This document shows positions 2,673 to 62,406 of a DNA stretch of 64,000 bases, one piece after another; the first letter of the stretch is position 1, and each line of letters starts with the position of its first letter. This stretch comes from Dioscorea cayenensis subsp. rotundata (taxonomy: Eukaryota; Streptophyta; Magnoliopsida; Dioscoreales; Dioscoreaceae), in the NCBI RefSeq assembly GCF_009730915.1, contig NC_052477.1, positions 26,926,578 to 26,990,577 on the forward strand, given 5' to 3'. The notes under the pieces were generated by a model. That model was not told where the DNA came from and ran no database searches. It was given only the letters and a program-made list of their open reading frames with translations. The position numbers and the translations under genes were made by a program.

Positions 2673-3444
2673 CCATGATAAAAGAAAAACCTGAAGCATT
2701 TGTTCTTGATGTCAGGCTTACATTTCTGAATATTGTCATGATCTGTAACAATGTTACATTATTTGCAAATGAATATATTCATTCAGAAGATTTCACTTTT
2801 GTCCGGCACATTGTTCAACATTCATTATTGAAGTGCAATTTCACTTTTGTAATTTTAACTTACTATTTTTTCAACAAATGATCACATTAGTAGTTAGTCT
2901 CCGTTAGAATCTTTTACAAATAATGAGAGTTTGAATCATAAGTGAGGGCATATTGCTAAAAATGTAAGTAGTGATTGTATATGGATGGTTTCATCATCTA
3001 TGTGTGTGTGGGTCTGTTTTTTCTAGCTCTGTTGAGATTTATACCCATCTCTTTTTTTATCTCGTCCTCACTTGCTCCTGTGACAGTGAAGTTTATGTAT
3101 GTCCTGTTTTTGTATAACATTTCCTGTGATGGTGGAGTTTGTGTACGTCCTGTCCTGTTTTATGAAGTTTATGATGAAAATTATGTATAAAATATAACGA
3201 ATTAAGTATTGAGTTCCATAAAGCAAACTACTATAAAAATTATTTACAAAAAAGTATTCACACGTGCCAAGTCTAGACTCACGTGCCAGGGGCCTGTGTC
3301 CGTATCGCGTGACCTTGACGCGCGGGTCTTCATTAAAACGAAGCCCTCGTCTCCTCTCTTCTTCCCTTTCGATCGCAGATCCCCTATCCCTTCTCTTCGC
3401 ATCCGAGGGGGAGAGAGAAGCAGCTTTGATCTTTGCGTTCCTAG
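2673..3444. other. REX1-B 3' flank and ARF copy 1 promoter/5' leader
   Basis: There is no gene here. The first part is the likely 3' UTR of the REX1-B gene. From about 3290 the sequence becomes GC-richer and CT-rich (3340-3440), which looks like the transcribed leader of the ARF gene. The leader ends at CCTAG|GTAATT (donor at 3445). Confidence 0.6.
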
Positions 3445-8616: not shown

Positions 8617-11857
<3,241 letters not shown>

Positions 11858-12542: not shown

Positions 12543-13918
12543 TCACCTGAGACTGAGAGCTTCATCATTCTCCAAAACCCACCACCACCTCTTCAACCTC
12601 TCCACCTCCCTCCCAACAACCAAATTCCTCCCCAAACACTCCAAAGTCCTAAACCCCAACCTCAAATCCCCAACCAAATCCTCCACCTTTCCCATCTCCA
12701 TCCTCTTATACAAATAACTCTCAAACGTCCTCTTTTGCACATACTCATCACCCACACATCTCCACCAAAGCTTCTCTCCCCCAATTACTCTTATAAAACA
12801 CGCTCTCCAACATTCCCATGAACCTAAACATCATCCCAAATTCCTCATCCCACTTCCTCAAATACCCTTCCTTCATCTCCTCCTCCTTCACCATCCTCTC
12901 CCCTCCTTCCGACGCCTTCACCACCGCTTCTCCACAAACTCTCCCGCTCTTCGCCGCGAAGTATATCCCTTCTCCTGAGCACTTCGTCACGTACCCCGCC
13001 GCGTCCCCTACCAGCGCCACCCTTCCCACCACTCTCCTCGCCCTTGGGTGCTCTGGGATTGGATGTGCCTCCACCTTTATCACTTCCCCTTCGCCGATCT
13101 TCTCATTCGCCCTCCGCCGGATTCCGGTCTGGTATTTCTTGATTTGGTGCTTTGATGAGATGGTCCCTGTGCCGACTGCTACGTGATCGCATTTGGGGAA
13201 GACCCAGGCGTAGAAGTCTGGGGAGACGTCATCGCCGATGTACATTTCGGCGAGGTCGGAGTAGTGCTGCATCTGGGCATCTGGGAGGCGGATCCGCTCT
13301 TGGAATGCGATCGCGTGGGTGTTGGATCCCGCGTTAATGGATTTGGCTACTCGGCTGTTGGTGCCGTCGGCGCCGATGATGACGTCGGCCGCGAGGGTTT
13401 GGGTTTTTGCCGCCGGCGTTGTAGTGGATGAGATAAGGGTCGTGAGGGGTGCGTGGGAGGGTGAGGGAGGTGAAGAGGCCGTGGAGGAGGTGAGCGCCGT
13501 GGGAAACGGCGCGGTCGCGGAGGAAGGAATCGAGGACCTCACGGCGGAGCATGGGAATGTGTTGGCCGGGGAGGAGGGCGGAGCCGAAGTCGGCGGTGAG
13601 GTTGGAGGGGGAGATGATGCGCATGCGGGTGACGCGGCGGTCGATTAGGGATTCGGGGATGGAGAACTCGTCGAGCATGCAGAGAGGGATGGCGCCGCCG
13701 CAGGGCTTCGTGCCGGAGGGGCTTCGTTCGATCAGGTATGTTTCGATCCCTCCTTTAGCTAGGGTTTCTGCGGCGCTCGCGCCCGCCGGGCCGCCGCCGA
13801 TCACGGCGGCACGGAGCTTGGCGGTAGTGAGTGAAGGAGTGAGCTGGCGAATGGGCTTTGTTTGAGATTTGAGGGGAGTGATGGAGGGAAGGAGGTGGGT
13901 TGTGGCGGCGGCGGCCAT
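12543..13918 (-). CDS. CHLP: geranylgeranyl reductase-like protein (CHLP family), two frameshifts
   Basis: Start ATG at 13918, stop TGA at 12545-12543, no introns. The N-terminus (MAAAATTHLLPSITPLKSQTK) looks like a plastid transit peptide. Then come the FAD-binding Rossmann motif AAVIGGGPAGASAAETL, PCGGAIPLCM, DVIIGADGTNSRVAKS, SPDFYAWVFPKCDHVAVGTG and ALVGDAAGYVTKCSGEGIYF. These are hallmarks of the enzyme that reduces geranylgeranyl groups to phytyl for chlorophyll, tocopherol and phylloquinone. Two one-base excesses break the frame: one in the T5 run at 13404-13408 and one in the C3 run at 12751-12753. Ignoring them gives 457 residues, close to the usual ~465. The C-terminus (KRWWWVLENDEALSLR) is divergent, so this may be a second GGR-clade paralogue. 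The stop codon overlaps a perfect donor-like CTCAG|GTGAGT. The breaks could be assembly errors or real decay; TOM40 nearby has the same kind. Confidence 0.85.
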
Positions 13919-13988
13919 GGAGGTGGGATTAGGGTTAGAGATTGAGGGTTTGGGAGAGATGGAGAAGAAGAGGAAAGAAGAAGAAGAG

Positions 13989-14012
13989 AATATATATATA
14001 TATATATATATA
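13989..14012. repeat. (TA)n tract in the reductase 5' leader
   Basis: An uninterrupted TA dinucleotide run lies 70 to 95 bases upstream of the reductase ATG. Its neighbourhood is GA-rich on the plus strand (CT-rich on the coding strand). An upstream in-frame ATG at 14038 would translate it as Tyr-Ile repeats, so I prefer the ATG at 13918. Confidence 0.8.
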
Positions 14013-14417
14013 ATATAAACAATTCTGAAGCTTTTCATGATGGGTTTTGTTTGTCTGGAGAAAGTGGAGGTGGGAAGTGGCGCCCGCCCGTGGCGGGGTG
14101 CATGAGGGAGCTCTGATCTCGAGGCGTTGTTGTTGGAGATCGGACGGACATAATTGAAGGTTTCTTGTCCTTATTATCTTTTTAAATATTTTGATATTAT
14201 ATATATATATTAAAATAGTTCATTATTTTAAACTATTTTTAAAAAAAATAAAAAGAGAATTATTTTAAATATTATTTATTTTTATTGATTTTTAAAAAAA
14301 TTGGCATAAATTGTTTGGTCTATCTATTATTAGCATCAAATTTTCTACATGGTTGATTGTGCTCCACAGGACCACAGCCTCCACTAAAGAAGTGAAGAAA
14401 CACAAAATTGTTTTCTT

Positions 14418-40559: not shown

Positions 40560-40640
40560 ATATGCAAAATTCTTGATAAATTTGTTGACTAACAAGAGGA
40601 AAGTTAGAGGAGAGTGCTTCAGTGATCTTAGATGCTTCTT
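40560..40640 (-). pseudogene. C-terminal remnant of copia pol
   Basis: On the minus strand one frame reads ITEALSSNF, which resembles the 'TKALSS' region near the end of copia RNase H, then runs towards the LTR. The ~100 codons that should join it to the segment ending at 47293 are missing, so the left junction of the gypsy insertion also removed copia sequence. Confidence 0.45.
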
Positions 40641-41437
40641 GCTCGGCGGTTTTGCAAAAGAACATGCCGAACAAGAGGAAAAACCCGGGAAGCTTAATCA
40701 TTCCGTGCAACATTGGCAATTTAGGTGAAGAAATGACATTGGCGGACTCGGGGGTCAATATCAACGTCATACCATACACCTTATTTCAGAAGCTAGGCTT
40801 GGGCGAGCCTAGGTCTACTCGGATGACTTTGCAATTGGAGGACCGAACGGTGAGACATCCGAGGAATATCATCAAAGATGTGCTTGTGAAGGTGGACAAG
40901 TACATATTTCCTGTAGATTTTGTGGTGCTAAACGTCGATGAGGATGCGGATGTAGGCTTGATACTTGGGAGGCCGTTCTTGCGGACTTCCAAGTCATTGA
41001 TTGACAAGCTCACATACCGTCTTGCTGAAGCCATGCAGCATTCTTTTGATTTCGATGATACTTTGTATTTTCTAGACACTACTGATGAGATTGTTGATGA
41101 ATATATACAGGAAATGTTCAATCCGGACCCCTATGAGGGTTTGTTCGACCAAGAGGAGGAAAATGAAGAAATAATGATGCTTGGCTCGACGGAAGAAGTA
41201 TCGTCTACTCAGGGGATCCTAAAGAAGGTGCTTCAGAAGATGAAGAGGGCGAGGAGACGCCACCGGAAATGCTCCAAGGCTATTGGAGATGCACGTGAAC
41301 CGGAGAAGTTCGATGAACCATTGCTAGGTGGTCCCAAGCCCGATAACTCTCCCTCTACCTTCAAGAGACTTTGCTCGTCATGCTTTCAAGCCATGGGTAA
41401 GAGGGCAACATTTATGTATGAACCCCCCGTGAGGTAA
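40641..41437 (+). pseudogene. gypsy aspartic protease fragment of gag-pol
   Basis: Open to the TAA at 41435-41437. The start matches the gypsy pattern 'CSAVLQ....+RK.PGS..IPC.IG'. The protease active-site region reads LADSGVNINVIPY, where the family has D-(S/T/L)-G. Then come LQLEDRTVRHPRNIIKDVLV, FPVDFVVLNV and LILGRPFLRT, the retropepsin end. After about residue 150 the frame turns into acidic then basic sequence (KMKRARRRHRKCSKA). RT, RNase H and integrase are absent, with an internal deletion or a non-autonomous design the likely reason. The sequence after the stop (AGCGCTTCTTGGGAGACAAC) resembles what normally follows pol in such elements. Confidence 0.7.
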
Positions 41438-41769
41438 GGACGAGGTACATCAAGCTTAGTGACGTAAAACAAGCGCTTCTTGGGAGACAACCCAAATGTT
41501 TACTGTTTTTCTTAGTTAATAGTTTAGTTTTCGCATGAATAACTTGTTGTGATGGTGTCTTGATTTTTAGATGCTTATGCTGTGTATTATATTGTGGATT
41601 GTGATGTCATCGTGTGTTTTCATGAGAATTTGCCGAAGTTCAAGTCACTTGAGCTTGTTTTTCAATGTTTTCCGCTGGTGTATTTTGCATAAAAGAGCAG
41701 GCTCTAAATGTGTAAACATGTTTAGGAAATTCTGCAGAGCCTGTAGAGTTTTCTAAGTCATCAAGAGAA

Positions 41770-42375
41770 AACACACAGCCGTATGGAATTTTCGCACGGC
41801 CGTGGATTTGTATTACGAGCTCATCCAGAGAAGGTACAAGGGCGTGGACTCGCCCCTGTGAGCGACCTTGCGATTTTTGCACGCCTGTGGGTAACTTCCG
41901 CACGGGCGTGTGTTTTCCTGCAGAGACTTGGCAAATTATCCCTAGAGCACACAGGGGCGTGGACTAGCCCCTATAGGTGAACCTCTGAAAAACGCACGGG
42001 TGTGGGAATTTTCCGCACGCCCGTGTGAATCTCTACAGACGAGCTTTGTCCATCCCGAGAAGACACAGGGGAGTGCGGTTGCCCCTGTGAGTTGGGCTTG
42101 TTAATGTCCACGCACGTGCGGAATTTCTGCACGGGCATGCGAAACACTTAGCGATTCTTCTCGGTTGGACAGAGAAGCCACAGGGGCGTGCGGCTGCCCC
42201 AGTGGATCGGGCGCACGGGCGTGGGTATTTTCCGCACGCCCGTGTGGTAGCATTCAGAGACAGTGATTTTTATCCCGAGAGCGCATAAGGGCTTGCGTCT
42301 GCCCCTACGGCTCTCTCCTGTGGAGTTGCACGGGTGTGGGTAATTTTCACAAGCCCGTGCGGATGTACAGAACGC
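41770..42375 (+). repeat. ~115-bp tandem array of hairpin-forming GC-rich units in gypsy UTR
   Basis: Five units carry CAGGGGCGTG(G/C)...GCCCCTGTG hairpins near 41838, 41952, 42068, 42182 and 42288. They alternate with GCACGGGCGTG / CACGCCCGTG hairpins. Related motifs recur at 42690-42765 and in the LTR at 45938-46010. Confidence 0.8.
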
Positions 42376-42820
42376 CAAGAGGCGCGAGTCCTTTTAAAAG
42401 GATCATTGTTTCTTCTCATTTTCACACTTCCCATTCATTTGCAAGCACACTCACACTTTCTCCTGACTTCGTATTGCCAATTTGGAGGGATTTTCACTTG
42501 GTTTTTCTGGCCAATTCAAAGTTTTTCATCTCAACTCGTCGGTAAACCCTTATCTTTATTTTTTCTTCATCAATTCTTGATTTTAATCGATGAAACCGGT
42601 CAATCATGCTTCGTTTCTGCAATTAGAATGATTATACATGTTTAAAACAAAGTTATAAAGAATTTAAAAATGTATTGTTAGATTTTTGTGGCGCGGCCGT
42701 GCGTTTGTTCATGCTCCGTGGATCCATACGGGCGTGCGGAAATTCCGCACGACGGTGAGGATTTCTGCCGCATTACTTAATTAACTGGTTTGATAAATTT
42801 TCTTTCAAATTTTATAGATT

Positions 42821-44147
42821 ATGGCACCTCGGTCAAAGAAGCAAGCCGAGAAACGGCCGCGTGAGTCATCCCCCGAGTCCGAGAGTATGAGATTCGCTAT
42901 CCCCAACCATCAGGCTCGTTTTGAGCATCTGTCGAGACTTCAGTTTGGACAGACTCGATTCCTCGACACGAGCATATTGAGAGATTTACAGTAGGGAGAT
43001 GAATTTGAAGATGAGGTCGAGAATCTCGTTTCGGTGGGTGGATGGTGGTTGTTATTATCGATTAGGGAGCCAGCCATTCGTGAGCCTACACTTGAAGTCT
43101 TATCGTCATTCGAGTTCGATAGATCTTATACGAGATTCGACAGCCTCGACGCCGTTCAATTCAGAGTATTTGGACAGTACTATAGCATGAGCATCACTCA
43201 GTTTTCAGTTCGGCTTGGCTTGTACGAGGAGGCATTTACAGACACTGAGGAGTATTCCTAGTTATCGACAGATTACCCTGGAGCGTTGACCCTGCAGAGA
43301 GCTTACCGAGCGTTATGTGGTCAGGGCCAGTATGAGCCGGGGGTGTCGAAGGCCACATGCCTTTCCCAACCAGCGTACCGATATTTACAAGCCATTCTGA
43401 GCAGGTCGGTGAATGGCCGTGGTGATAGCACTGGCGTTCTGAGCCGCCAGGAGCTTCTATATTTGTATTCAATTGTGCAGCGCATGCCGATTCATCTAGG
43501 GCACATCATCGCAGAGTACATTCGATATCAGGGGCAGTATGCCAGATTGGGAGCGATCTTCTCGGACCCCTACATTACGAGACTGGTTTTAGACATGGGT
43601 CTCTTGGACGCAATTCATGGGGCCGAGAAGACGAGTATACTTGCGCCCCTGAGCCTGGAGACAATGAGATTGATGGGTATGGTCCGCAGGGTTCGGACGG
43701 GAGTTTATGCTTTGCTTCTACCAGCTCCAAACATAGCTGAGGATGAGGGTGATGCTGCCGAGGCTTCTCATCCTGATCTCGAGCCTCAGCCGACGCCGAT
43801 GGAGACCGACGCACCCCCTGCAGCAGAGGACCCACCCCCAGTACGCATATTTTCACCATCTCGAGCCCATGATCATTTTGAGAGGCTCGAAAGTGCTTTG
43901 GGTGGTACAGACCGAGATTGCTGAGGCACGAGAAGAGATAGCAGAGGTTCGTGCGACGCAGGCCACGCAGTTCACAGAGTTCATGGCGCGTTTTGACATT
44001 CTACAGCAGATCCTCCATAGAGACGCTGTCTCACCGTTTGTGCTGCGACCCCGCACCTCTCAGCCACCTCCTGCATCACCCTCACCGGATCCACCAGCGC
44101 CATTCGAATATCCAGCAGTAGAGCCAGAGCGCGACACCGACACTTGA
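42821..44147 (+). pseudogene. Athila ORF1/env-like third ORF, broken
   Basis: The start MAPRSKKQAEKRPRESSPES continues in one frame with premature TAG codons at 42992-42994 and 43259-43261. A frame change near 43880-43915 leads to a coiled-coil tail (EIAEAREEIAEVRATQATQF) and a Pro-rich end with stop at 44145-44147. The pattern 'R.FLDT..L..L', a Trp-rich GGWW segment and 'EPTLEVLSSFEF..SY' is that of the plant Athila ORF-1/env-like retrotransposon family. The function is unproven in the family. The breaks are as found; the element is inactive. Confidence 0.65.
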
Positions 44148-45431
44148 CTTGTATTTCATTTGTTTACTTGTACATTTCATTTTGGACTTGTATACTCAGA
44201 AAGGACTTTCCTTCTGAGTTTATTTTCATTATGTTGTCTCGAGATGTATTCATTGCCTTATATTTTATATATACTCGAGCTGTTTTTGTTTTATTGAGCT
44301 TTACTGAACCCCCTCATGTATGCGTGCAGATGGTCTTGTCATCATGGGCAATGAGAATTTGTCATAGACACGGCCAAGGTGCTTCGACATTTGGTCGTGT
44401 ATGCTTCACAACCCGTTGGAACACCACTCCCAATGAATTAGCTCCATCAAATGCAACACTAGGAGTGAGGGGAGTATTGTTTTGATTGCTTCTCCCACAT
44501 TTATTCTTGATTGATATACATCATGAGTGAGCTTGCATATATACATTGGGGACAATGTATAACTTAAGTGTGGGGGGAAGTTTCATAGTGCACACATCTC
44601 TTTTATATTAATTTTGATTGATATACATACTCACATAGCCAATGGTGGTTCACCTTAGTTGCAATGATTGTATTCTTGGGTTTAGAAGAATTTTTAACAT
44701 TGAATGTCTTCATGCTCTAGTTTTTGCTTGAATTTGTAGGAATTTTTGCCCGATTGACACTTGTTGCACTACTCACTATTTAAACTCTTTTGGAAACTCA
44801 TGTTTGATGTTAAAGGGACTAGTTATTGTTGTTTATTTTGTTATTTATGAAAAAAAAATGGAAAAATGAAAAGAAAAGAAGAAAATAGTTTTGTTGTTTA
44901 GTTGTGTTTGTTGGGTGGAAAGAGCTACCACCTATGATATATGAAGCTACTCTCATAAGTCAGATACTAGTTATGCCCTAATGAGAGAAAGAGCTATCTC
45001 ATGGGATGTGTGAAAGCTACCACCCTGGTAGAAAGAGCTACCACCTCGAAAGTGTGAAAGTCACCTTAGCGGCCGCTTTGGATAGGGCTACCTTAGAGGA
45101 TGTGTGAAACTACTACCCTTTTTGAATTTTTGTTAACTTCTGTAGATAAATAAGTCCCTTTTACGTAGAACTTTGAGGAGTATACCTTGGGTTGACTTAA
45201 GTGAGTTCACACACTTACATGATTTCGGATTTGTTGTCCTTTTTTATTCAAGTTTTTAGCTAGAGCATTGATTTTTCGTATTTAGTGTTGAAATTTCCCT
45301 TACTTGTAGAATGCTCTCTTTGCATGCTTTGGTGAACCAAAGACTAAGCACTTCCAATATTTCCTTCATCTATGCATACAATGTTTTAATTTTTGCTTGA
45401 GGACAAGCAAAAGCTTAAGTGTGGGGGAGTT
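44148..45431 (+). other. gypsy 3' untranslated region with purine tracts
   Basis: Non-coding. The degenerate tandem motif AAGAGCTACCACC...GTGTGAAAG occurs at 44918-45115. Two purine-rich tracts are present at 44566 and 45417. The second abuts the LTR and is the likely plus-strand primer. Confidence 0.65.
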
Positions 45432-47292: not shown

Positions 47293-50200
47293 ATAAGAAG
47301 CCCAATCTGAATCACAGAATGCTATGAGATTAAAAATAGGTTCTGCATTCATTAAGATACCTTGTTATGGATTGTTTTTGGCATATCTCAATGTATGCAT
47401 AGCTACTTGTAAGTGTGGCTCTTTTGGTGAAGACATAAACTGACTAAGATACTATACAGTGAAGGAGATGTCATTTCTTGTATGGGTCAAATAGTTCAGT
47501 TTGCCAATGAGATTCCTATAAGAGAGTGGATTCCCCAAGGAAATACCTTTATTCATGCTCAGTTTTATTCTTGCAAGTAATACACTGGAAAAAGAACTGT
47601 ATGAATCAGAATTGTACTCTTTAATCAAGTCCATTGCAAACTTACGTTGAGTCAAAATAACTCTAGCTTTTTCCTTAAAAACCTCTATGCCCAAAAATGC
47701 AGATCTCCAAGGTAGCATCTAAGAATTCTTTTAAAGATTGCATTTCATTCATATCTGTGCCTGTCAAGAGAATATCTTCAACATATATAGCAAGGAACAC
47801 CACTAAATCTCCTGCTTTCTTTAAGAGCAATGAATAATCATTTTTTGAATTTTCATATCCCTTGGACCTTAGAGCATCCATTAGCTTGGAGTACCATTGT
47901 CTTGAGGCATGCATGAGTCCATACAAGGATTTTTTAAGTTTGCAAACTGTCCCTGAATTCTTTACATCAAGACCTTGAGGAACTTGCATATAGATTTCTT
48001 CATGTAGATCTCCATGCAAAAAAAGCATTATTGACATCAAGTTGGAATATAGGCCAGTTTTTCTTAACTGTTACACCAATTAAACACCTCATTGTAGTTA
48101 TTTTCACCACTTGTGAAAATGTTTCTATAAAATACACACCTTCCTTCTATGTGAAACCCCTTACAACCAGCCTTGCTTTATATCGTTCAATAGAACCAAC
48201 TAACTTGCATTTAACTCTATATATCCACTTACAACTAATGGGTTTCTTGCTAGAAGGAAGTTGAACTAACTCCCAAGTTTCATTTGCTATTAGAGCAGTG
48301 ATTTCTTTCTGCATGGCTTCTTGCCATTCTGGTATCATTACAGCTTCTTCAAAGGATGATAGTTCATGCATCTTAGTAATACTAGTTAGCAACTGCTAAT
48401 TTTTTGTGGTAAGAGAATTGAAATAAACATGATTTACCAACAAAGAATTGTTTGTCAAGGTATGAATACAATGCATATTAAAAGAATCAGATGCAAGTGA
48501 CACTATATTATTACAAACATAATCTTGCAAATAAGTAGGATATCATGAGAATGTGCCCTTGTTGACCTTCTTAAGATTGGATTAGAAACATATAGGGTTT
48601 GAACTGAAGTCCTTTGAAGAACTGGACTATTTAATTGTGTAGAAAAAAAATATTTGCAGAATATTCAATAAAAGTTTCACCAACAAGATTAGGTATAACA
48701 GTAGAATTAGGCTATGTAAATTGATCAAAAGGAAAAAATGGATTCATAGAAAACTATATTTCTGGTAACATAAATATGATAATTTTTCACATCAAGTACA
48801 AGGTATGCTTTCTTCCCAAATGAATAACCTAAAAATACACATGGTATGGCTCTTGGTTGCAGTTTATCTAAATACTTTTCTATGGGAGTTATATAACATA
48901 GACAACCAAAACTTCTTAGATGAGAATAATCTGGTTTTCTCCCATATAGTATTTCAAAAGGAGTTTTGTTTTTCCAAGAGTTTTGAAGGGAATCTATTAA
49001 TCGGATAAGTTGTTGTTATCACACATTCTCCCCAATATTTTAATGGTAATTTGGATTGAAACAAAAGAGCCCGCAAAGTTTCAAGCAAGTGTTTACGTTT
49101 TCTTTCTACAACACCATTTTATTGTGGTGTATAGGAACAAGTAGTTTGATGTATTATACCTTCTTCAGTGAAAATTTTTTTGGCTTCAATACTAGATCCT
49201 AATTCAAAAGTATTATCAGATCTTATAGTTTTAATTTTTGTTCCAATTGAGTTTTTACCATCTGAATGAAGGCTTTTAGTATTGAAAAGGCATTACTTTT
49301 TGTACTAATAATATGTGTCCAGGTCAACCTACTATAGTCATCTACTGTGGTTAGAAAATACCTATGTCCTTGATGTGTGCGAGTATGATAAGGACCCCAA
49401 ACATCTATATGAATTAGCTCAAATAATTGAATTTGTCTGAACATGTCTTTATGGAAAAGATTTTTTGTGCTGTCTGGCTTGATGGCAAATAGAACAACAA
49501 TTAGGAAAAGAAGATCTGTTATTGGAACTAACAAAAGACAATTGTTTCAGTTTATATAAGGGTAAATGATCCAGTCTATAATGTCAAGACATTATTGAAA
49601 TAGAAGATTGAGAAACAGAATTACAAGAGTTGCTATGAAGGGTACAATTGGTTGATCTAAACGACAAAACAGTTTCAGAATTTGAAAGAAAATGTGGCAC
49701 ATTCTCAAGCTTCTGGCTATCCAACATATACAACCCTTTGTGAAGTCTACCAAGAACTAGAGGCATCTTCGCTGAAGGGTTCTCCATAAAGCAAAGATTA
49801 GCTGTTAAAACAATTTTGTAGTTCATCTGATTGGCAAGTTTACTAAGTAAATTATAACAAAAACTAGGTACAAAAAGAACCTTTTCTAAAAGAAAATTTG
49901 AAGCAATGCTAACTGTGCCAATGTGACACTGTCACAGTGTTACCAATGGACGAGGTTATATGAAAAGGCTTTGCAATAGGAATGAGTTACAAAAATAAAC
50001 TAGGATCATAGCAAATATGATCACTGTCTCCTGAATCTAAAATCCAAAAATTATGAGGAAAAGGTAGTTGCATACAGTGATTACTAAAGATGCATGAATC
50101 ATGTAAAGTTTCAAGAACAGTACCACCACGAAAATTGGCTAAACATGCAAGATTTACTGAATTCTCTACTACTGAATTCTGATTCAAAAAATTCATTAGT

Positions 50201-51197
50201 TTGTTCAGAGTTTTAGTAAGCTCTGGAATTTGTATTTCTTTAGAAGCATCAATGGAAGAGTCATTTTCTGAAATTTCTCACTAAAATTTCCAGCAAACCT
50301 CCTTTCTTTGAATCTTTAGAAACTGCAGGATATCCATTTATTTTGAAACATTTATCTTTTACATGCCTTAGCTTCTTGCAGAAATCACAAAATAAGTTTC
50401 TTCTTCCATCTGCACGTCCCTTCTGATAAGCATTCCTTTGTGGATTATGAGAATTCATGATACTCATAGATGCTGAATTAGTCAAGAATTGTAAACTAGA
50501 GTGAATATCTCTTTGTTTTTCCTCTTGAATCAGAAGTGAATAAACTTGGCCCACTAATGGAAGTAAATTCATCATTAGAATACTTCCATCAACTGTTGCA
50601 TATTGTTCATTAAGACCCAGAAGAAATTGAATTAATCTTTGATCATCTGCAGATTTCTATGAGATTTGTGCAAAGCCACAAGAATAAGAAGATGGAACCT
50701 TCAAGGATTGCAATCTATCCCGCAATATCTTGATCCTTGTGTAATAAGCTGACACACTACTAGCTACAAATCTCCAGAGCTATATTACAATAAAGAACGC
50801 TCTCCAAAATCTCTTTAGACAAAGAATTCAAAAGCTAAGAAATTACCATGTTGTTACAACAAAAGCAAAAATGATGATCCGGGGAATTTGAATCAAGTTA
50901 TACACAAGAACCATCCACAAAACCCAATTTATTCTTAACTGAAAGAGCTTTGATCATAGGTCTTTTCCAAGCTCCAAAACCAAAGCCATCAAATACTTGA
51001 GAAACAAGAACTTTTCCAAGACTATTTGAAGAATTCAGATAAAGAGGTGATGAGGAATCACTAACCGAAGAATTAACAAAAGGAACTCCCCATTCTTGGC
51101 CAGGACTAGCCATTGAAACAGAGTATACACAACAAGAAACGTAGCAGAATCGATGCACTTCAAAATTAATCAGATGAAAAGCTGAGAAAAACAACAA
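47293..51197 (-). pseudogene. copia gag-pol, decayed
   Basis: On the minus strand, in order: gag start near 51113 (MASPGQEWG), gag zinc-knuckle region (CDFCKKLRHVKDKCFKING, about 50370), integrase core (HIDVWGPYHTRTHQGHRYFL and VDDYSRLTW, about 49430-49320; ERKRKHLLETLRALL near 49080), RT ([51 protein letters not shown]) and RNase H start (FCDSDWAS, at 47300). Several stops and frameshifts separate the blocks. The RT catalytic motif YVDD is YVED (Glu codon at 47777-47779). It stops at the gypsy LTR. Confidence 0.85.
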
Positions 51198-52972: not shown

Positions 52973-53606
52973 TGTGTCATGTATTGATGTATGCTTTCTT
53001 CGATATACTAAGGCCTTCTTAGTGGTATATAATATTTGTTCCTAAACTGTTCTTTGATCTCAAAACCTAGTGAAGTGATTGTCTTTCTTTTCTAGTATGA
53101 TGTACTACTTTGATTCTCTTTGTTTTAAAGAAATAGAATGCATTTTCACATGTGAATTTCGATTTATATTATGAGTAAGCATAATTTTTATACCATTTAA
53201 TAAAATATTCAGAAATTAGAAATGTTATCACAGAAATTCATGATAATTATTAATTTTTCTAATTAAAAGTTTATTTGTATACCGAAACTTATTGATAGCA
53301 TTTTAACAACTCTAATTTCTTTTTATATATATATTTTTTCAAGATTTTTTGTGGAAAATTAAGAAGAAAAAAAACCCTAGAAAGAAGACATGGACTAGTT
53401 GCACAGCAGCCGCACTGCCCGGCAACAGCTCTAATTCACACTTAATATCCATTTAATTTTAATGTTCTTATATGAAAGTCAATATTCTATTTATTATTAA
53501 AAAATCAATATATGTATATATATAAAAGATGAATCACATTTTCATATAACAATAAAAAATTTAAAAAACTTGAAGCTAAAGCATGCATAAAAAATGATAA
53601 AGAGAG
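52973..53606. other. AT-rich spacer left of the MULE
   Basis: No gene or repeat recognised. Confidence 0.5.
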
Positions 53607-54010
53607 AGTAATGCTATACATGCATAATAGATTTCTCGAAATGTTATCCCGAATAACATGGAGGCTGATGTGGCATCCATGTCACCATACAATCTCTTTA
53701 CTAATTAGCCGCATTTAAAAAAACAAAAAATAAAAAATAAAGGAAAAAAATAACAAGTTTCCGGAAATGAAACCCTAAATCATCTCCCCTCTCGTGGTCG
53801 GCGTCGCCAGTCCGGTTCCCCCACTCACCATTGCCGTTCTGGCTCACGCCGTCACCGTCACCGTCCCCATCCCGGCTCAAGCCGTAGTTGTCCCATCCCG
53901 ACTCCCCATCTCGCCGTCGCCATCCCCATCCAAATCATTAGGAGCAGGGTCTAAAACATCATCGAACCTAAAGAATTCTAGGCTTTTCACTTCTCCAGAT
54001 CGCCAAAAGC
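53607..54010 (+). repeat. left MULE terminal inverted repeat with GC-rich subterminal repeats
   Basis: It pairs with about 61320-61729. The outer half is AT-rich. The inner half (53790-53935) is repeats of the type CGGCTCAAGCCGTAG..GTCCCATCCCGACTCCC. The ORF at 53794-54015 is only a reading of these repeats. Confidence 0.8.
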
Positions 54011-54583
54011 TTTAGGGTTAGGGTTTTCATTCGATATCTTTTAGGTTTGATCTCTTATACCTCACATTGTGTTTAACTGGGCACCAGTCTAGACCTCTGA
54101 TGATGTCCTCTTATTCTTGAAATCGATCTCTTTCTTGGTATTTTTCAAATTGAATTTTAGGTTTTTTTCCAATCTATTTGATTATTAATTTTAGGAATTA
54201 TTTGATGTTTTAATGGTTTATCTTGATCTTGGATTTATATTTGGAGCTATGGTAGAGTTGTTTAGAAATGGTTGAGGTGAGATGTTCATAATGCCAAAGA
54301 TTGGAAGAGTTTCTTACCTTTGAATTTTCTTTGGATTGATTGTTTTTAGCCATAACATCAAGAAAGATGAAGTCTTGCTTGTTTATTTATCAAATTTGGC
54401 AATTTGAGATCACTCTGATGTATTTCAAGAACTTATTATATCTCAAAAAGTTTAAAAGTTTCATTGCAAGCTGAAGTATACACTCTGTGGTGTCTTGTGT
54501 TAAGTGCGTTTCATCTTTTTTTTATGATTTGATTTTCATGGTTGATGTTTATTGTTTGGAATCTATTCTTGAACCTGGTGAAG

Positions 54584-54739
54584 GATGAGGATGCATTCTT
54601 CGCATACTATGGTAAAGCTCACTTGAAGCTCTTTGAGTTAGGGTAAAATATGTTTTAGATTGTTAACACTCAACACTACATTGTTTTCCAAGATTGTTGA
54701 CTCATATCTTTCTCTAATTCTAGGTTTGCTGAGGCTTGA
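54584..54739 (+). pseudogene. APX: captured ascorbate peroxidase 3' exons, left arm
   Basis: The exon 54584-54642 encodes DEDAFFAYYGKAHLKLFELG (the last codon is completed by the next exon). The intron 54643-54723 has GT-AG borders. The exon 54724-54739 encodes the ending FAEA plus TGA. This matches the C-terminus of plant cytosolic APX ('[22 protein letters not shown](D/E)A'), including the final intron position. Downstream (54740-54900) is likely captured 3' UTR. The intact intron shows capture from genomic DNA and not from a cDNA. Confidence 0.75.
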
Positions 54740-54909
54740 AGGACCAGCGGGGTTGACCTGTGGGGAGCTTTTATATATTTCTTTTAGGGGCTAAAACAAA
54801 GAATTAAGGGAGTATATCTCTGGAATAAGAACTTCAATGTTACTTTCCGTTTCATTAGACTTCCCTTGTTCTCTAGGTTGGTTGTTTCATGGGGTCACCA
54901 AATATTATG

Positions 54910-55164
54910 TCATCTATAACTTGATGTAGTCATCAGATTAATTTTCACTTTATGATAATTATTCTTTGGGGTGAAGACCCCATGTACATTCTGGCAATCC
55001 CATGAATAACCATTCCTCGGGTTTGGTTGTTCTTCAAACAATTTTGGTAAATTTTTCCTTATGGCATCCTCCAGTTTTAGTACATCACTTCTAGGAACCC
55101 TATACCAAACAATCGGTTCACCAAAATGCATGTAATTCAGAGAGTAAAGGTGATGATCTTCCAC
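54910..55164 (-). pseudogene. captured JmjC histone demethylase fragment
   Basis: The minus strand reads EDHHLYSLNYMHFGEP, IVWYRVP, LKLEDAIRKNLPKLFEEQP. This is the JmjC core of plant JMJ14/JMJ18-type H3K4 demethylases ('VEDHHLYSLNY.H.G.PK.WYGVPG...LE.AMRKHLPDLFEEQP'). Similarity ends after EEQP, where an exon border probably lies. The fragment is about 55 codons and cannot fold into an enzyme. It is a second host-derived piece in the MULE. Confidence 0.7.
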
Positions 55165-56139
55165 TTGTTGTTGTCATACAAAAAGCAAGGGTGGTAAAAT
55201 GTCAATCGAGAAAACAAACAAAATAACGAGCTAGAGAATGGATAATAGAATATTGAACTTAATCTGCCATATGTTAAATCAGTAGAAAATACATCATCAA
55301 TCAATCTAGTTACATATATTCAGCATCTTGTATCATTCATAAAAACAACAAAATGGCAACACAAGAGACAAACCAAAAATATAAATCACAAACATTTCAA
55401 TCATTGCACAACAAACAAGCAAGCAAACAAACAAAACCCACACTACATCTCAAGCTCTTTAAACTTGTTTCATAGTCTGAAGGTTGAAGCTCTATAGTCT
55501 ATCTCTTTAAACATTACAATAAGCTCTTTAAACTTTCCTCCATTGCTTCAGGTGTAGATATAATATCCTGCAAGAACTACAAAGCATGATTAAGTATCTC
55601 CTACCCAATTGAATACATGGATGTGAAGATGAATCATTGTTAAAATAGAATACAATTTAAATATCTAAAAGGGAACCTTTTGAAGTACCTCCTGTCCAAG
55701 AATTTCAGTAGTTCTTCGTGATACACGATTAGTAACACCATCCTCAGCAAAAGTAACAAGACCAAACCCCCTCCGTGCTACAATCTGCACAATAAATAAA
55801 TAAATAAATAAAGTAATAAATTTAAATCTTCAACTTTGGAAGAAGGGCATTATACAACTGAATCACATATCTTGTAGGGTTCCTTTTTAGTTACCTGTAA
55901 TGAAGTATCAATGCCTAGATTTTGCAAAGTGAAGCTATCAACATGTATATTTAATGTGTTTGGAAGAGTATTCAAAACCACCGAAGAGGAAATATTTTAA
56001 TTGTATTGTATTAAAAAATTATGTGAAATAACATAACAAATATAAATGTTAAATGCCAAACATTACCACACTTTCTTGAGTACAAAGTTCAAGTTGTACG
56101 TCATTTGGAGTTTGTGCATCTCCCTTTGTTTGATTTTTC
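55165..56139. other. MULE interior, non-coding
   Basis: AT-rich with weak traces of coding sequence on the minus strand (about 55690-55790 and 56060-56130) that may be more of the transposase 3' exons or captured sequence. Nothing is firmly identified. Confidence 0.4.
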
Positions 56140-57565
56140 TGAAAAAATAAAAATTAACATTAGAGCCAAGAAATTATTATAGAAGTGACAAAATTTAATG
56201 TAAAGTATGATTAACTTTCTCTTATTTCTAGTGATTATTTCTTCAACTTTTGACTTCTTTCTTTTTTATGGTGGCTGGCCCTTACTCCGCACTTTTAGGA
56301 GTTAGAAATTTTGTAGTTGAACAGGTTGTTCAATTTTGCTCATGATTTTCTTCCCACAAAACCGGTCATAGAAGTTGCTCTAAATGACTCTCCCAAGAAT
56401 TGTATTATTCATCAACTTCTCTATTGCCCCATCAACACATTTCATTAAAAAATTATATCTCTCCATGGATTGTATTCCACTTTCAGTAGCTTTAGAAAAA
56501 TGAGCACATAAGCTGTTATATCGCACTTTCTGCTCACAAGTTTCTATATCATCATAGCAATTCATCATATAAGTATACATGCGCTTGATATCCTTTGTCC
56601 AGGGGTAAAATATATTGAGATGGAATGCCTTTTACATTCCTCTTAATAAAAACCTTGCATATATGCCTGCAAATAATTCCTCTAAACTCATATAAACGGC
56701 ATGAGCACTTGGTGTCAAATTCAATTTCATTATGATAAACAAGGAATACAACTTCTTTTCTAAGTCTGCCTTCTTTTCCTTTGAAAATGCCTATCACCTA
56801 AAATATAGATATTGGGCCATTTGAATTGACAAGTGAAAGATCTCAATATAGCATTCCTCTCAATTCATCTTAAAAAGATTTAAAATTTTCATTTGTATAA
56901 GCTTCTTGTAATTGGCTCTCAAAATAACAATCGGATAACATTGGAAAGCATGTGTTAAAAGAAGAAAAATCAGTTTTGTTTTCCTTTTCGATCTTACTTT
57001 TCAATGCATTGTGATATTGCTCTACAAATTGCTTTAATGAAGTTGTAGGGCCAACATAGCCATAAAAAAAAAAATCTTTTATGCTTTCACTTCTTTGAGT
57101 GGTAGACATTCCTGCCCAAAAAACTCCTTTGATATAAACCGGAGCCCAGCGTTGCCGATTATAATATAAAAAAATCAACCATTCTTTTTTTTCAATGTTG
57201 AAGTCGTTTATCATCTTCAACCAAATGTCTTCAAATTCTTGATAATCCACTGCCTCATAAACAGTGCTCTTTAAAATCTTCTTTATTGCCTTGAACTCAT
57301 TGAATCCTTTAACCTTCTTAGTAACCTTCTTCATTATATGCTAAAGACAAAGCTAGTGATGAGAATTTGGAAAAACAGTCTTAATTGCACCTTGAATTGC
57401 CATGCATTGATATGTAATTATTGCCCTTGGGGCCTTGTCGGAGTTACATTCCAACCATGTCTTAAATAGCCAAATATAAGTCATCGTATCTTCGTTTGAT
57501 AACAAACCACATCCAAATAGTATGGTTGGTCGATGATGGGTTACACCAACAAAATGAGCAAAAGG

Positions 57566-59398
57566 CATGTTGTTATAACCAGCCTGTTATAGGTTAAATT
57601 AAAGCTAGTGATCTTGTGGTTCATTGTGGATGATGTTTGTATAGAAATTTAGTGCTTAATCGTAGATAATCATAGGTTTAAATTGAAGCCAATGATCTTG
57701 TGATTCATTGTGGATGATGTTTGTATGGAAATTTCCATGTTTAATGCTGTAAATTTGAGAAGAAACCATTTGTTAGGGTCTGGTTTACTGTAGAAGATCT
57801 TAGTTATTGTAGTAGCTACTGTAGCACCAGTGAACTTTAGTTTTTTCTTTGGTTTTTTTGGTTTAGAGGGAGGCTCAGACCCTTAGGAATTCATTGGTAA
57901 CCTAAAGATTTAGTTTTGAGCCAACTATAGGATTGATTTAAGGTTGTTTGTTAAAGAAACCTAGGGCTTCATTGTTTGATTTATTTTGTTTAATTCTGGT
58001 TGATTTTTTTTTTTTTTTGTGATTTGGCAAGGTGGTGAAGTCCCAGCTCGAGGCAAGGAGCAGGTGGATGATTAGAGTCCGAAGAAATCTAATCGTCTAG
58101 TCTAAGTTGTGAGTGGGCTTTAGTATGCATGATTCTATTAGAATGATACCTATATATATATATTATTGTTTGAGTTGAAGCTTTCCTCAGTTTTAAATAC
58201 TTTGAATCAATTCTTTGATCATCTTGGAGTACACTTCTTTATTAATGTTTCATACTTGAAAATAATGAGGTTTGAAGGAAAGCTTTCAGGATGACATTTG
58301 GGTTATGGGTTTTGAATTGATTTGCTTTGTGAAACCTTAGATATGTTTATTCTTTCATCATTTCTATGTGTGGAAATGGCTAATATTCTGGTTATTGGTT
58401 ATTGTCCTTGATATGGACTCCATGTTGAGATATACTTGTATTGCATGGTTTAATTAGATGGTGTTGCTCTACTGCAGTAGGCGGTCTCCGCGGCCAACCT
58501 ATTGAGATGACGCAGTAGAACAACTGATCCTTTTCGACCAATTCAGGAGGGGCGTAGGGCCCTGATTGGATGGTCATTGGGGAGTTGAAGTCACCATAGC
58601 ATGAACTGATTGGTCAACGTCAAGGACATGAGTACCTTGACGGCTCTGAACCTAGCCACGACTATGGCAAAAGTTTAGAGAGATTTCTAGACCATTACTT
58701 GCTGGGTGTGTTGCCAACTTGGTATTTTAAGGAGTTTGTGTTTTTTCATGCAAATGAGTTTTTGAGAAGTAATCTCTTGCATATCTTTTGTATTGCTATT
58801 TTAGACTATGATGAGGGGGCGAGTATTATGTTTTATAGATTTTGAAACTTGTATTTATTATGTTTTTGTATACATTGAAATGTTCAGATCTATATGTATT
58901 ATTGTAAAAGCTTGACTTGATGTTCAACTTATTTTATGGTTTAGAACTCGTGTATTATATTTTGGGAGTTTTATTGTTGAAACCCTATTTGATGCAAAAG
59001 CTTTCTTTATGCTATCTTTGGTATTATTACACATGTTTATTCAGTTATATGTTATTATGTTCTGATTATTTTATATCATTGGTAGAAACTTATTTAGGTG
59101 ATTTATATCATTTTGGTATATCCTTTTAGGGTTGTGCTAACCCACTCATTGAGTGACCTAGGTTGCTCACTCCTTTTTTCTTCTTCCCAAGCTTTAGCTG
59201 GCAGTAGTAAGGCAGTAAAGCAGTGTGTTGGGCATTTGCTAGCCTTTCTTCTACGTTTATTTCCTATTTCTTGTATGTTTGTTTTTTTATCATGAACTTG
59301 TTGTATAATGTCTTGGATCCACTAGTGTGTTGAAAACTCTGTCTGCATGAATACTTGTTTGGATACTTCCTAAACTCTTATGTCGAAGTATTATTACT

Positions 59399-59438
<40 letters not shown>

Positions 59439-59609
59439 CCTTGCGTACCTTTGAATTCCTTTATTCTATACTTGTTGCTTGAAGTTGTTGCTTCCAGGTA
59501 TTTTGTCAGCCTTGCGGTGACCTAAGGGTTGAGTGGTGGGTTATCCCTCCTTAGGTTGTCATGGCGGTTGTCGCGTCCCAAGGCCCACTGATCGGGGCGT
59601 GACACATGT
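57566..59609 (-). mobile_element. solo LTR (gypsy, Tekay-like) with CATGT target duplication
   Basis: CATGT at 57566-57570 and CATGT at 59605-59609 flank a 2,034-base unit (57571-59604) that begins TG and ends CA. On the minus strand it starts TGTCACGCCCCGATCAGTGG, as many plant chromovirus LTRs do. The interior has a ~70-bp tandem duplication (57600-57735), a T-run near 58003-58018, a (TTG)n tract (59401-59437) and no coding potential. No internal region or second LTR exists, so it formed by LTR-LTR recombination after inserting into the transposase. Confidence 0.9.
59401..59437. repeat. (TTG)n microsatellite in solo LTR
   Basis: Twelve perfect TTG units. Confidence 0.95.
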
Positions 59610-60747
59610 TATACTTATTTGTTAAGTATGTTGTGTCAAATGATACCATATTACCAAAAGCCTCTTAAGCTGCTTTGGACTTTGCATCTCCCAAAAAAAT
59701 ATTTCTCAAACGACCTTCCTCATCCATATCAATCTTATAAAAAAAAATTGAATTTCTTTGGTGCATACGAGAGAAATAATAATTTCCTTACTTTGCAATA
59801 TAGTTCCTTCAGTTCTTCTCAGTGTATGTCAAGTTTTCATAACCACCACTTTCAACATCTAAAGAATGAAAATTTTTGCTCAAGCCTATACTCGCTTGAT
59901 CATTTAATTCAAGCCTCCTCTTCACATATCCATCCATTTTTTTATTGCACTTTTGAAAACGAGATTTATGTGAACTAAGTGCATAATTATGCTCCAAATT
60001 GACACAAGATATAATACATCATCCATCATTACCAATTATAACATTGATCTTGTCTTGACAATTTGTTTTGGTGGATAGCCTTGGGTTGAAAGCATTTTTG
60101 GCGATGGGTATCCTTTTGTCATCTCTTACACATGAAAATATGTAAAATTTTAATTTTTCATCTTCTCCCGATCTTGTGCTTCGTCTTGTAATGCCAAAAC
60201 CTTCTTGCCAAGCAAACTCAACGTAGAGATTGTAAACTTCTTCATAATTAAGCATCATTCCTACCTTTGGAACAACTTTTCCATGTAGTGAATCCTCTAG
60301 CTGAAATATTTTTTCATTTTCTTTGTTTAATATTTCCATACTAGAAGATCCAGCTTCTGTCCCATTTTTGCTCGGTTCAGAAGACACATGTTCCAATTCC
60401 ACCATACTGTTCTTGATTTAGATCTATATTGATTAAAAAATTATAAAATAAGTGTAGTATAATCAAATATACTATCATAACAATTAAAAAAGTATCATAA
60501 GATAAGAAATAGACTAAAAGTGGCTTTACCAGAATCAAAGCAAAAACAGAAATTATTCCTTTAAGAAGCAGAATCCCCATTTTTAAAAACAGAGAAGTAT
60601 AAATTTGATCTAATAAACATACTAAAAGTGTTTCTATGAAGTTTGGTACTTATCATAAAGTAAAACATAAATAAATTAACAACATTACCAACTAATTTGA
60701 TGAGAAAACTCAACAACATATGAAAATTAATGTTGTACGTTGTGATT

Positions 60748-60753
<6 letters not shown>

Positions 60754-60802
<49 letters not shown>
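60754..60802. repeat. (AG)n microsatellite
   Basis: About 24 perfect AG units in the MULE interior, upstream (minus strand) of the transposase. Confidence 0.95.
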
Positions 60803-60805
<3 letters not shown>

Positions 60806-61120
60806 AAATAAAATGGGAGCAGGAGCACTCATCTTACAAGATGAACACTAAAAATAACATAGCTCGAGTAGGACAATAACCTGTGGATCTGACCTCTTTG
60901 CAAGCCATAGATGCTTCAATTCCAAGTCAGATTGTGATTCTATGATACCCTTAAGGTAAATAGCTAATTTTTACATCTTTTGTGGTGTCCTCCTGAATTA
61001 TCAAACAAATTAACAAGTCAGATTATAATTCTATGAAACCTAGAATTAGAGAAAGATATGAGTCAACAATCTTGAAAATCAATGTAGTGTTGAGTGTTAA
61101 CAATCTAAAACATATTTTAT

Positions 61121-61179
61121 CCTGACTCAGAGAGCTTCAAGTGAGCATCAGCATAGTCTGCGAAGAAAGCATCCTCATC
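61121..61179 (-). pseudogene. APX: captured ascorbate peroxidase exon, right arm
   Basis: The minus strand encodes [19 protein letters not shown], closer to normal APX than the left copy. A TGTAG acceptor precedes it. The donor is lost (GGATAAAA where the left arm has GGGTAAAA). The following intron is conserved to 61040, but the last exon diverges at once. It is inverted relative to 54584-54642, as part of the MULE arm. Confidence 0.75.
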
Positions 61180-61319
61180 CTACACCAGGTTCAAAAAAGT
61201 TTACATTCAATACAGAGTAAACAACTGAAGAATTTGAAAATCAATTGAATGAGTACATACAACAACATATTCTTCAACCAGGGGGCATAATACAGGATTA
61301 CTCAGAATACATGATCAAT

Positions 61320-61729
61320 TTGATAAGTGAGCCGGGACGGCTCCAGCGTAAGTCGGGAAGGGGACGACGACTTTGTGAGCCGAAACGGCGACAACTAGAG
61401 GGGGAGCCAAGACGAGATGGCTACAACATGAGCCGGGTTGGGGACAACGATGGTGAGAGGGGGAGTCGGGACTGGATGGCTACAGCATGAGCCAAGACAG
61501 TGACAACGACGGTAAGAGGAGGAGCCGAAATGACGCCGGCGACATCAAGAAGGGAGATGATTTAGAGCTTCATTTAGGGAAACTTGTCTTGCTTTATTTT
61601 ATTTTTATTTTTTATTTTTAAATGCAGCTGATTAGGAAAGAGATTATCTAGTGATGTGAATGCCACATTAGCCACCATGTCATTCAAGATAGCATTTCAG
61701 GGAATCTATTAGGCATATATAGCATTACT
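61320..61729 (-). repeat. right MULE terminal inverted repeat
   Basis: Pairs with 53607-54010. The GC-rich subterminal repeats (GAGCCGGGACGG, GAGCCGAAACGGCG types) are more numerous here than at the left end. Confidence 0.8.
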
Positions 61730-62406
61730 AAAAAAGAAACTTGAAGAGATGCTTGTGGAAGTACTTCATATAATAAGCTATTTGGTCAAATTATATCTCA
61801 TCAATATATCTCTTTATAATCTTGGTTTCATTGGAACTATAAAATGTATAATACCATACAATAGAAAAGAAAAGTTAATATTAAATATTGGTTTGAAATA
61901 AACATAATGACTAATATCAAACAATGAGATCCTATTTCATATAGGATCATTAAGAGTAACTTATTTACCACTGAAACACTCAATGTTGTTGCAAAATGAA
62001 AATTAAAACCTGTGACATAAATGTTACTTAAATGTGAATATCATGAGGACAAAAAAGCATGAGATGAGCAATGGAGTATTAATTGGAGAAAATAATTCAT
62101 CTGGAACCTCTCAGTAATTTGTTTTTATTATTTTTTTTACAAAAGCAACAAGGGGACCTCAAGAAATAAGTAGGTACGGTGGTGCACCAGTTACTGTGGC
62201 TTAACAGCACTCAAGAGATTTATTAACTCGATTGGACGTCACATGAGACGATTAAAGTCCTACCATATGCACGCCCAGAAGATATTTCAAGAAGCAAACC
62301 AAGCTAGTAAATCCCCCTGCTATACAAACCTAAAAAGGAGGAAAATGTCATCCTCTCACAGGGGATCCTGTGAATAGTAAATGAACAAAGTATTCTACAG
62401 TATTGT
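61730..62406. other. spacer right of the MULE
   Basis: No gene recognised. Confidence 0.5.

Follow-up and report, generated by a model that had tools for sequence, protein, structure and literature searches.

Mutator-like elements (MULEs) of the Jittery clade, to which maize Jittery belongs and which are relatives of FAR1/FHY3, share a transposase with an N-terminal FAR1 domain, a MULE domain and a C-terminal SWIM finger. These three domains recur in an element of 8,125 bp in the white yam Dioscorea cayenensis subsp. rotundata, a monocot, at positions 53606-61730 of the stretch of DNA analysed here (the window; 64,000 nucleotides, C7:26926578-26990577), which on its domain content would be assigned to the Jittery-like group. 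The terminal inverted repeats (TIRs) tabulated for the clade are 39-292 bp long, close to those of the yam element (PMC6446971). However, the yam copy is decayed and loaded with pieces of host genes, and its target duplication is 9 bp, whereas 8 bp or none is indicated for the plant sub-group (PMC6446971).

A second point of comparison is provided by the Pack-MULEs, in which pieces of host genes lie between MULE ends; about one fifth of those in rice draw on several source loci, as the yam element does (PMC12030055). Pack-MULEs are described as non-autonomous (PMC3310237), whereas the yam element keeps a transposase remnant. It works like a Pack-MULE, with host gene fragments inside MULE ends, but falls outside the strict definition, which is confined to elements lacking transposase sequence. 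Transposase and host-derived sequence are also combined in KI-MULE and in Jittery-like families of grapevine and melon with captured ULP or other genes (PMC2528002). A ULP domain recurs in such elements, whereas the yam element draws on four unrelated donor loci, one of them represented in both arms. A first-pass annotation of the window had called the combination of transposase and captured genes uncommon. The literature does not support this: MULEs that bear a transposase together with host sequences, some of them Jittery-like, are known from grapevine, melon and Arabidopsis (PMC2528002). Turmoil-1 of C. elegans carries two captured protein-coding sequences in its inverted terminal repeats (PMC2572040); the host is a different one, and in the yam element the gene present in both arms, a cytosolic APX, is separated from the TIRs by unlike sequence. 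Nested insertions are reported in more than one third of transposase-bearing MULEs of maize and rice (PMC3903597).

Each layer of the yam element has a precedent, be it transposase-bearing capture, multi-locus capture, nested long terminal repeats (LTRs) or coding pieces in terminal repeats. Their exact combination was not found described in the open-access literature searched, and Dioscorea was absent from the Mutator/FAR1 transposable-element literature among the matches listed, which does not by itself show absence. The means by which MULEs pick up genes was described in 2012 as not yet understood (PMC3310237), and gap-filling was called worth exploring for plant Pack-MULEs in 2021 (PMC8277862). 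With four identified donors, a sister holding part of the same cargo and readable seams, the yam element offers a concrete test case for models of capture, from a yam family of the FRS type in which predicted coding relatives of full length occur, and it is of value chiefly as a fossil record of the capture process. Very probably it began as a FAR1/FRS-type (Jittery-like) TIR-MULE with a transposase of its own, took up host DNA piecemeal, decayed and received an LTR.

The element and its transposase

The interval 53606-61730 is one MULE (Table 1). The single element with inverted ends proposed at first pass, at 53607-61729, is real, and its limits lie one base further out on each side because most family alignments open at 53606, not 53607 (its first letters are GAGTAATGCTATA). 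The inverted ends (53607-53904 against 61729-61430) are 74% identical over 305 columns, and the outermost 131 nt are 81% identical with no gaps; their local score is 132, whereas 200 dinucleotide shuffles reached 19 at most. The GC-rich subterminal stretches remarked on earlier are also there, at 64% (53780-53950) and 59% (61330-61560) against 35% for the whole element. Long inverted repeats and a MULE-type transposase, two marks of a TIR-MULE, occur together; of the third, a target duplication of 9-11 bp, the window element has an imperfect version (7/9), while 4 of the 10 family elements tested have 9/9.

A broader reading of the ends was ruled out. The arms do not form one continuous long TIR: what they have in common is limited to the outer ~300 bp and the APX block, with unlike spacers between (the GC-rich parts give an additional weak 72-bp match, 65%). 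A second inverted block, 54566-54727 against 61036-61197 (93%), is not an extension of the TIR; it is the APX piece.

The FAR1/FRS-type transposase remnant, correctly recognised before, lies on the minus strand and comprises a MULE domain (PF10551, E=5.9e-19), a C-terminal SWIM finger (PF04434, E=1.3e-8) and a FAR1 domain (PF03101, E=5.3e-5) that at 24.3 bits falls just below the curated cutoff of 28.1 and is carried by the full-length Dioscorea relatives. The best matches are to Dioscorea proteins 705-746 aa long, annotated either as hypothetical or as FHY3/FAR1 (76% over 94% of a 344-residue query), and full-length predicted relatives are present in yams. The window copy is dead: its three parts hold 4, 5 and 3 in-frame stops, a frameshift separates the core from the C part, the ITDQ motif, which we take to be a catalytic site, carries a substitution where the relatives keep it, and the reading frame is split by the LTR.

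That insertion has the TG...CA ends, perfect 5-bp duplication and multicopy nature of a solo LTR, as had been suggested from the first, the gypsy type named there being putative; its family is large (2,264 first-look candidates, 40 of them scored), and a sister element on contig C3 is continuous across the site, which is therefore empty there. An LTR retrotransposon would have entered the transposase and then been reduced to the solo LTR. The same LTR family was also matched between the transposase blocks of two family members, L021 (C26) and L017 (C1).

Captured sequences and their donors

The first-pass annotation spoke of two captured host genes, APX and a JmjC gene. Pieces of both are indeed present, on the evidence of exon peptide matches, Pfam JmjC and the donors themselves, but the count was too low: at least four host loci have identified donors, namely a region upstream of LOC120269928, cytosolic APX, a JMJ18-like gene and a DUF707 gene (contigs C10, C7, C19 and C1), without counting an RRM-like piece, and APX is present twice, inverted, with one fragment per arm. 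Identities to the four donors are 79-90%, and all the pieces, the RRM-like one included, total 2,238 bp of 6,086 bp (LTR and one CATGT excluded). The APX and JMJ18 introns are retained, which shows capture at the DNA level.

In the donor, the open reading frame downstream of the match to piece 1 is 100% identical to LOC120269928 over 65% of its length, and piece 1 is presumed to be the 5' region of that gene. Piece 3 matches Pfam JmjC at 1.8e-8 and a D. alata JARID1 protein at 83%; among the 40 of 150 candidates that were scored, matches to this stretch were confined to the window, the C3 sister and the donor. Piece 4 gave 79% and 89% in another comparison and has a paralogue at C14:20131712; it takes the name DUF707 from donor exons outside the piece (Pfam 9.7e-18 and 2.7e-9), its own exon, read in the donor, having E ~0.01. 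The donor matches abut across the (GA)n-rich stretch at 60731-60805, which therefore probably arose or expanded after capture. Of 13 relatives compared, 4 have the whole of the 222-bp insert in the 3' region of the transposase, 3 have part of it and 6 lack it. A firm identification as RRM was not adopted (PDB E=0.34, no Pfam match), and the insert is kept as RRM-like.

The APX donor lies ~2.1 Mb away on C7. The exon peptides of the two fragments are recognisable (left, E=8.6e-6 against 1apx; right, E=1.1e-5), and in donor coordinates the fragments span 2988-3347 (left) and 2875-3151 (right), their overlap forming a 162-bp inverted block. A genome search with this block returned seven matches: the two arms, the donor, three that do not reach beyond the exon and its edge, and a last one with the C10 piece; C18 aligns to APX more widely, but weakly. 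Among the loci found, the window element alone has APX pieces, one per arm. A faster divergence of exon than intron between the arms was considered and is not claimed (7/58 versus 3/83, p=0.09).

Table 1. Features of the yam element, in window coordinates
Feature	Position	Strand	Evidence
Decayed 9-bp target duplication, left copy ATAAAGAGA	53597..53605		7/9 with 61731-61739
Left TIR and GC-rich subterminal part	53606..53967	+	Family alignments; pairing with right end
Piece 1, upstream of LOC120269928 exon (C10)	53968..54572	+	88% over 617 columns to C10:3660648-3661260
Piece 2a, cytosolic APX from an exon and intron through the last exon into the sequence beyond	54569..54918	+	87% over 360 columns to APX gene near C7:29.135 Mb
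Piece 3, part of a JMJ18-like histone demethylase gene (intron, JmjC exon)	55011..55310	-	90% over 301 columns to gene at C19:27.285 Mb
222-bp insert, RRM-like exon, splice-like sites both sides	55614..55835	-	Present/absent pattern in relatives
Transposase remnant, C-terminal side (MULE domain, SWIM finger; stops, frameshift)	56110..57571	-	Pfam; 76% to D. alata FHY3/FAR1 protein P0002, 323 columns
LTR target duplication CATGT, left copy	57566..57570
Solo LTR, 2,034 bp, TG...CA	57571..59604		CATGT both sides; high-copy family; empty site in sister
LTR target duplication CATGT, right copy	59605..59609
Transposase remnant, N-terminal side (FAR1 DNA-binding domain)	59605..60405	-	63% to P0002, 272 columns; 4 stops
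Piece 4, DUF707 gene sequence with (GA)n-rich interruption ~60731-60805	60523..61015	-	Three blocks, 85-89%, to C1:1.36 Mb
27-bp templated filler, second copy of 60923-60949 from DUF707 piece	61014..61040		24/27 match
Piece 2b, same APX gene, overlapping fragment, inverted	61036..61307	-	88% over 277 columns to APX donor
Right TIR and GC-rich subterminal part	61308..61730	-	Pairing with left end; family alignments
Decayed 9-bp target duplication, right copy AAAAAGAAA	61731..61739		7/9 with 53597-53605

Family members and the C3 sister

Further copies sharing these ends and flanked by 9-bp duplications had been named at first pass as support for a single element, and such copies exist. A query of the genome (584.2 Mb, 2,249 contigs) with the left end gave 51 candidates, 40 of which were scored, with at least 40 matches in all, two of them from the window element itself; elsewhere inside the window, matches were to simple repeats only. 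Both ends were tested for 10 elements, the window element among them, and perfect 9-bp target duplications were found in four (L013, L014, L016 and L018). Agreement was 8/9 for L009/L010, 5/9 for L017, 3/9 for L019 (8/9 with its right end moved by 3) and 2/9 or 0/9 for the two possible left ends of L015. The same ends lie on both sides of the transposase in L017, and on the one side fetched in L021 and L023.

The most informative copy is the C3 sister (C3:9695051-9711201, 16,151 bp), which is 83-89% identical to the window element in the transposase, 88% in the JmjC stretch and 92% in the RRM-like insert. It also holds 130 bp from the C10 piece at 92%, on the opposite side of the transposase from that in the window element. 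At the transposase-side edge of the DUF707 piece, the sister has ~40 bp resembling the DUF707 donor (37/40 by eye, no control), followed by the C10 piece. Queries with APX found no match in the C3 sister or in 13 other family sequences compared.

Two smaller members differ in structure. L014 (C4:11150827-11153639) is 2.8 kb long and has a perfect 9-bp duplication; it includes 131 bp of the RRM-like insert, lacks any match to the window transposase and is likely a non-autonomous carrier. L015 (C24:645006-646722) contains the family end three times in 1.7 kb, twice in one orientation and once in the opposite; it is possibly a tandem-TIR or nested element, its target duplication being unclear.

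Route and order of capture

Host DNA would have been gained stepwise in the arms and in the 3' region around the transposase gene. An ancestor with an active transposase, already carrying the RRM-like, DUF707, C10-gene and JMJ18 pieces, would then have transposed to give at least two descendants, the window element and the C3 sister, with decay of the transposase to follow. The RRM-like piece was probably acquired first, then JMJ18, DUF707 and C10, and APX last; APX is so placed because the C3 sister has no match to it, unless the sister has lost its copy.

The most likely route would be repair of a transposon gap by copying unrelated templates, with switching at short homologies. Between the DUF707 piece and the right APX piece lies a filler that matches its template at 24/27 positions against a maximum of 20 in 2,000 shuffles, having been picked after an earlier self-comparison had listed it. 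Templated filler is an expected product of gap-filling with template switching. At the seam between the C10 and APX pieces, the donors share the 4-bp TTGA, and short overlaps are likewise predicted by this model (PMC8277862). Filler and overlap together therefore fit gap-filling with template switching. We put forward tentatively, as one possible reading of this stepwise fossil, that host DNA enters beside the ends by such repair, after which it can be copied across to the other arm. The inverted APX pieces in both arms and the C10 piece, whose side of the transposase differs between the two sisters, are consistent with arm-to-arm copying, which, if true, would be how captured genes join extended terminal repeats; entry of acquired sequence into extended TIRs has already been noted for MULEs (PMC3310237).

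The two APX pieces could instead have been taken up separately by the two arms, from the same gene or from a lost APX copy, a serious alternative that we nevertheless consider rather doubtful. The fragments cover different, overlapping parts of the gene and their neighbouring sequences differ, as independent events would have it. However, over 159 ungapped shared columns the arms agree with each other against the present donor 11 times, compared with 5 right-only and 6 left-only changes, and they share indels. This favours spread of a single ancestral copy to both arms and is not decisive, the 11 including changes in the donor lineage. The alternative is not the only consideration that tells against the history proposed above. 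The target duplication of the window element is imperfect (7/9, an agreement reached or exceeded by 0.4% of random 9-mer pairs drawn from its flanks), and that of the C3 sister is likewise just 7/9. A single 4-bp seam overlap is not beyond chance by itself, and the remaining seams were inspected visually, not scored. Finally, no second APX-bearing copy was found, so that mobility after the capture of APX is unproven.

It is very improbable that the locus arose as separate insertions and segmental duplications that accumulated by chance between two solo MULE ends of unrelated origin. Such an origin would accommodate ends that are just 74% identical, an imperfect target duplication and the presence of another mobile insertion in the form of the LTR, but it is largely refuted by the C3 sister, where ends of the same type enclose transposase, JmjC, RRM-like, C10 and short DUF707-like pieces. 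Since these pieces are shared at another locus, most of the cargo moved together, and the transposase-bearing relatives have the same ends as well, on both sides in L017 and on the one side fetched in L021 and L023. That the transposase remnant derives from a domesticated FRS gene turned pseudogene, with terminal repeats from an unrelated family, is scarcely credible: plants do have FAR1/FHY3-like genes without terminal repeats (PMC2528002), but in the C3 sister and L017 a transposase-bearing copy is enclosed by the same ends, L021 and L023 have such a copy next to one of these ends, and close proteins recur in Dioscorea.

Other sequences in the window

Outside the element, open frames occur at 40589-44485 and 47675-50656 of the window, which by eye are like retrotransposon gag/protease and copia-type pieces. 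Further open frames at 12748-14170 and 8790-9161 resemble by eye what are presumably a geranylgeranyl reductase and an ARF-type GTPase exon.

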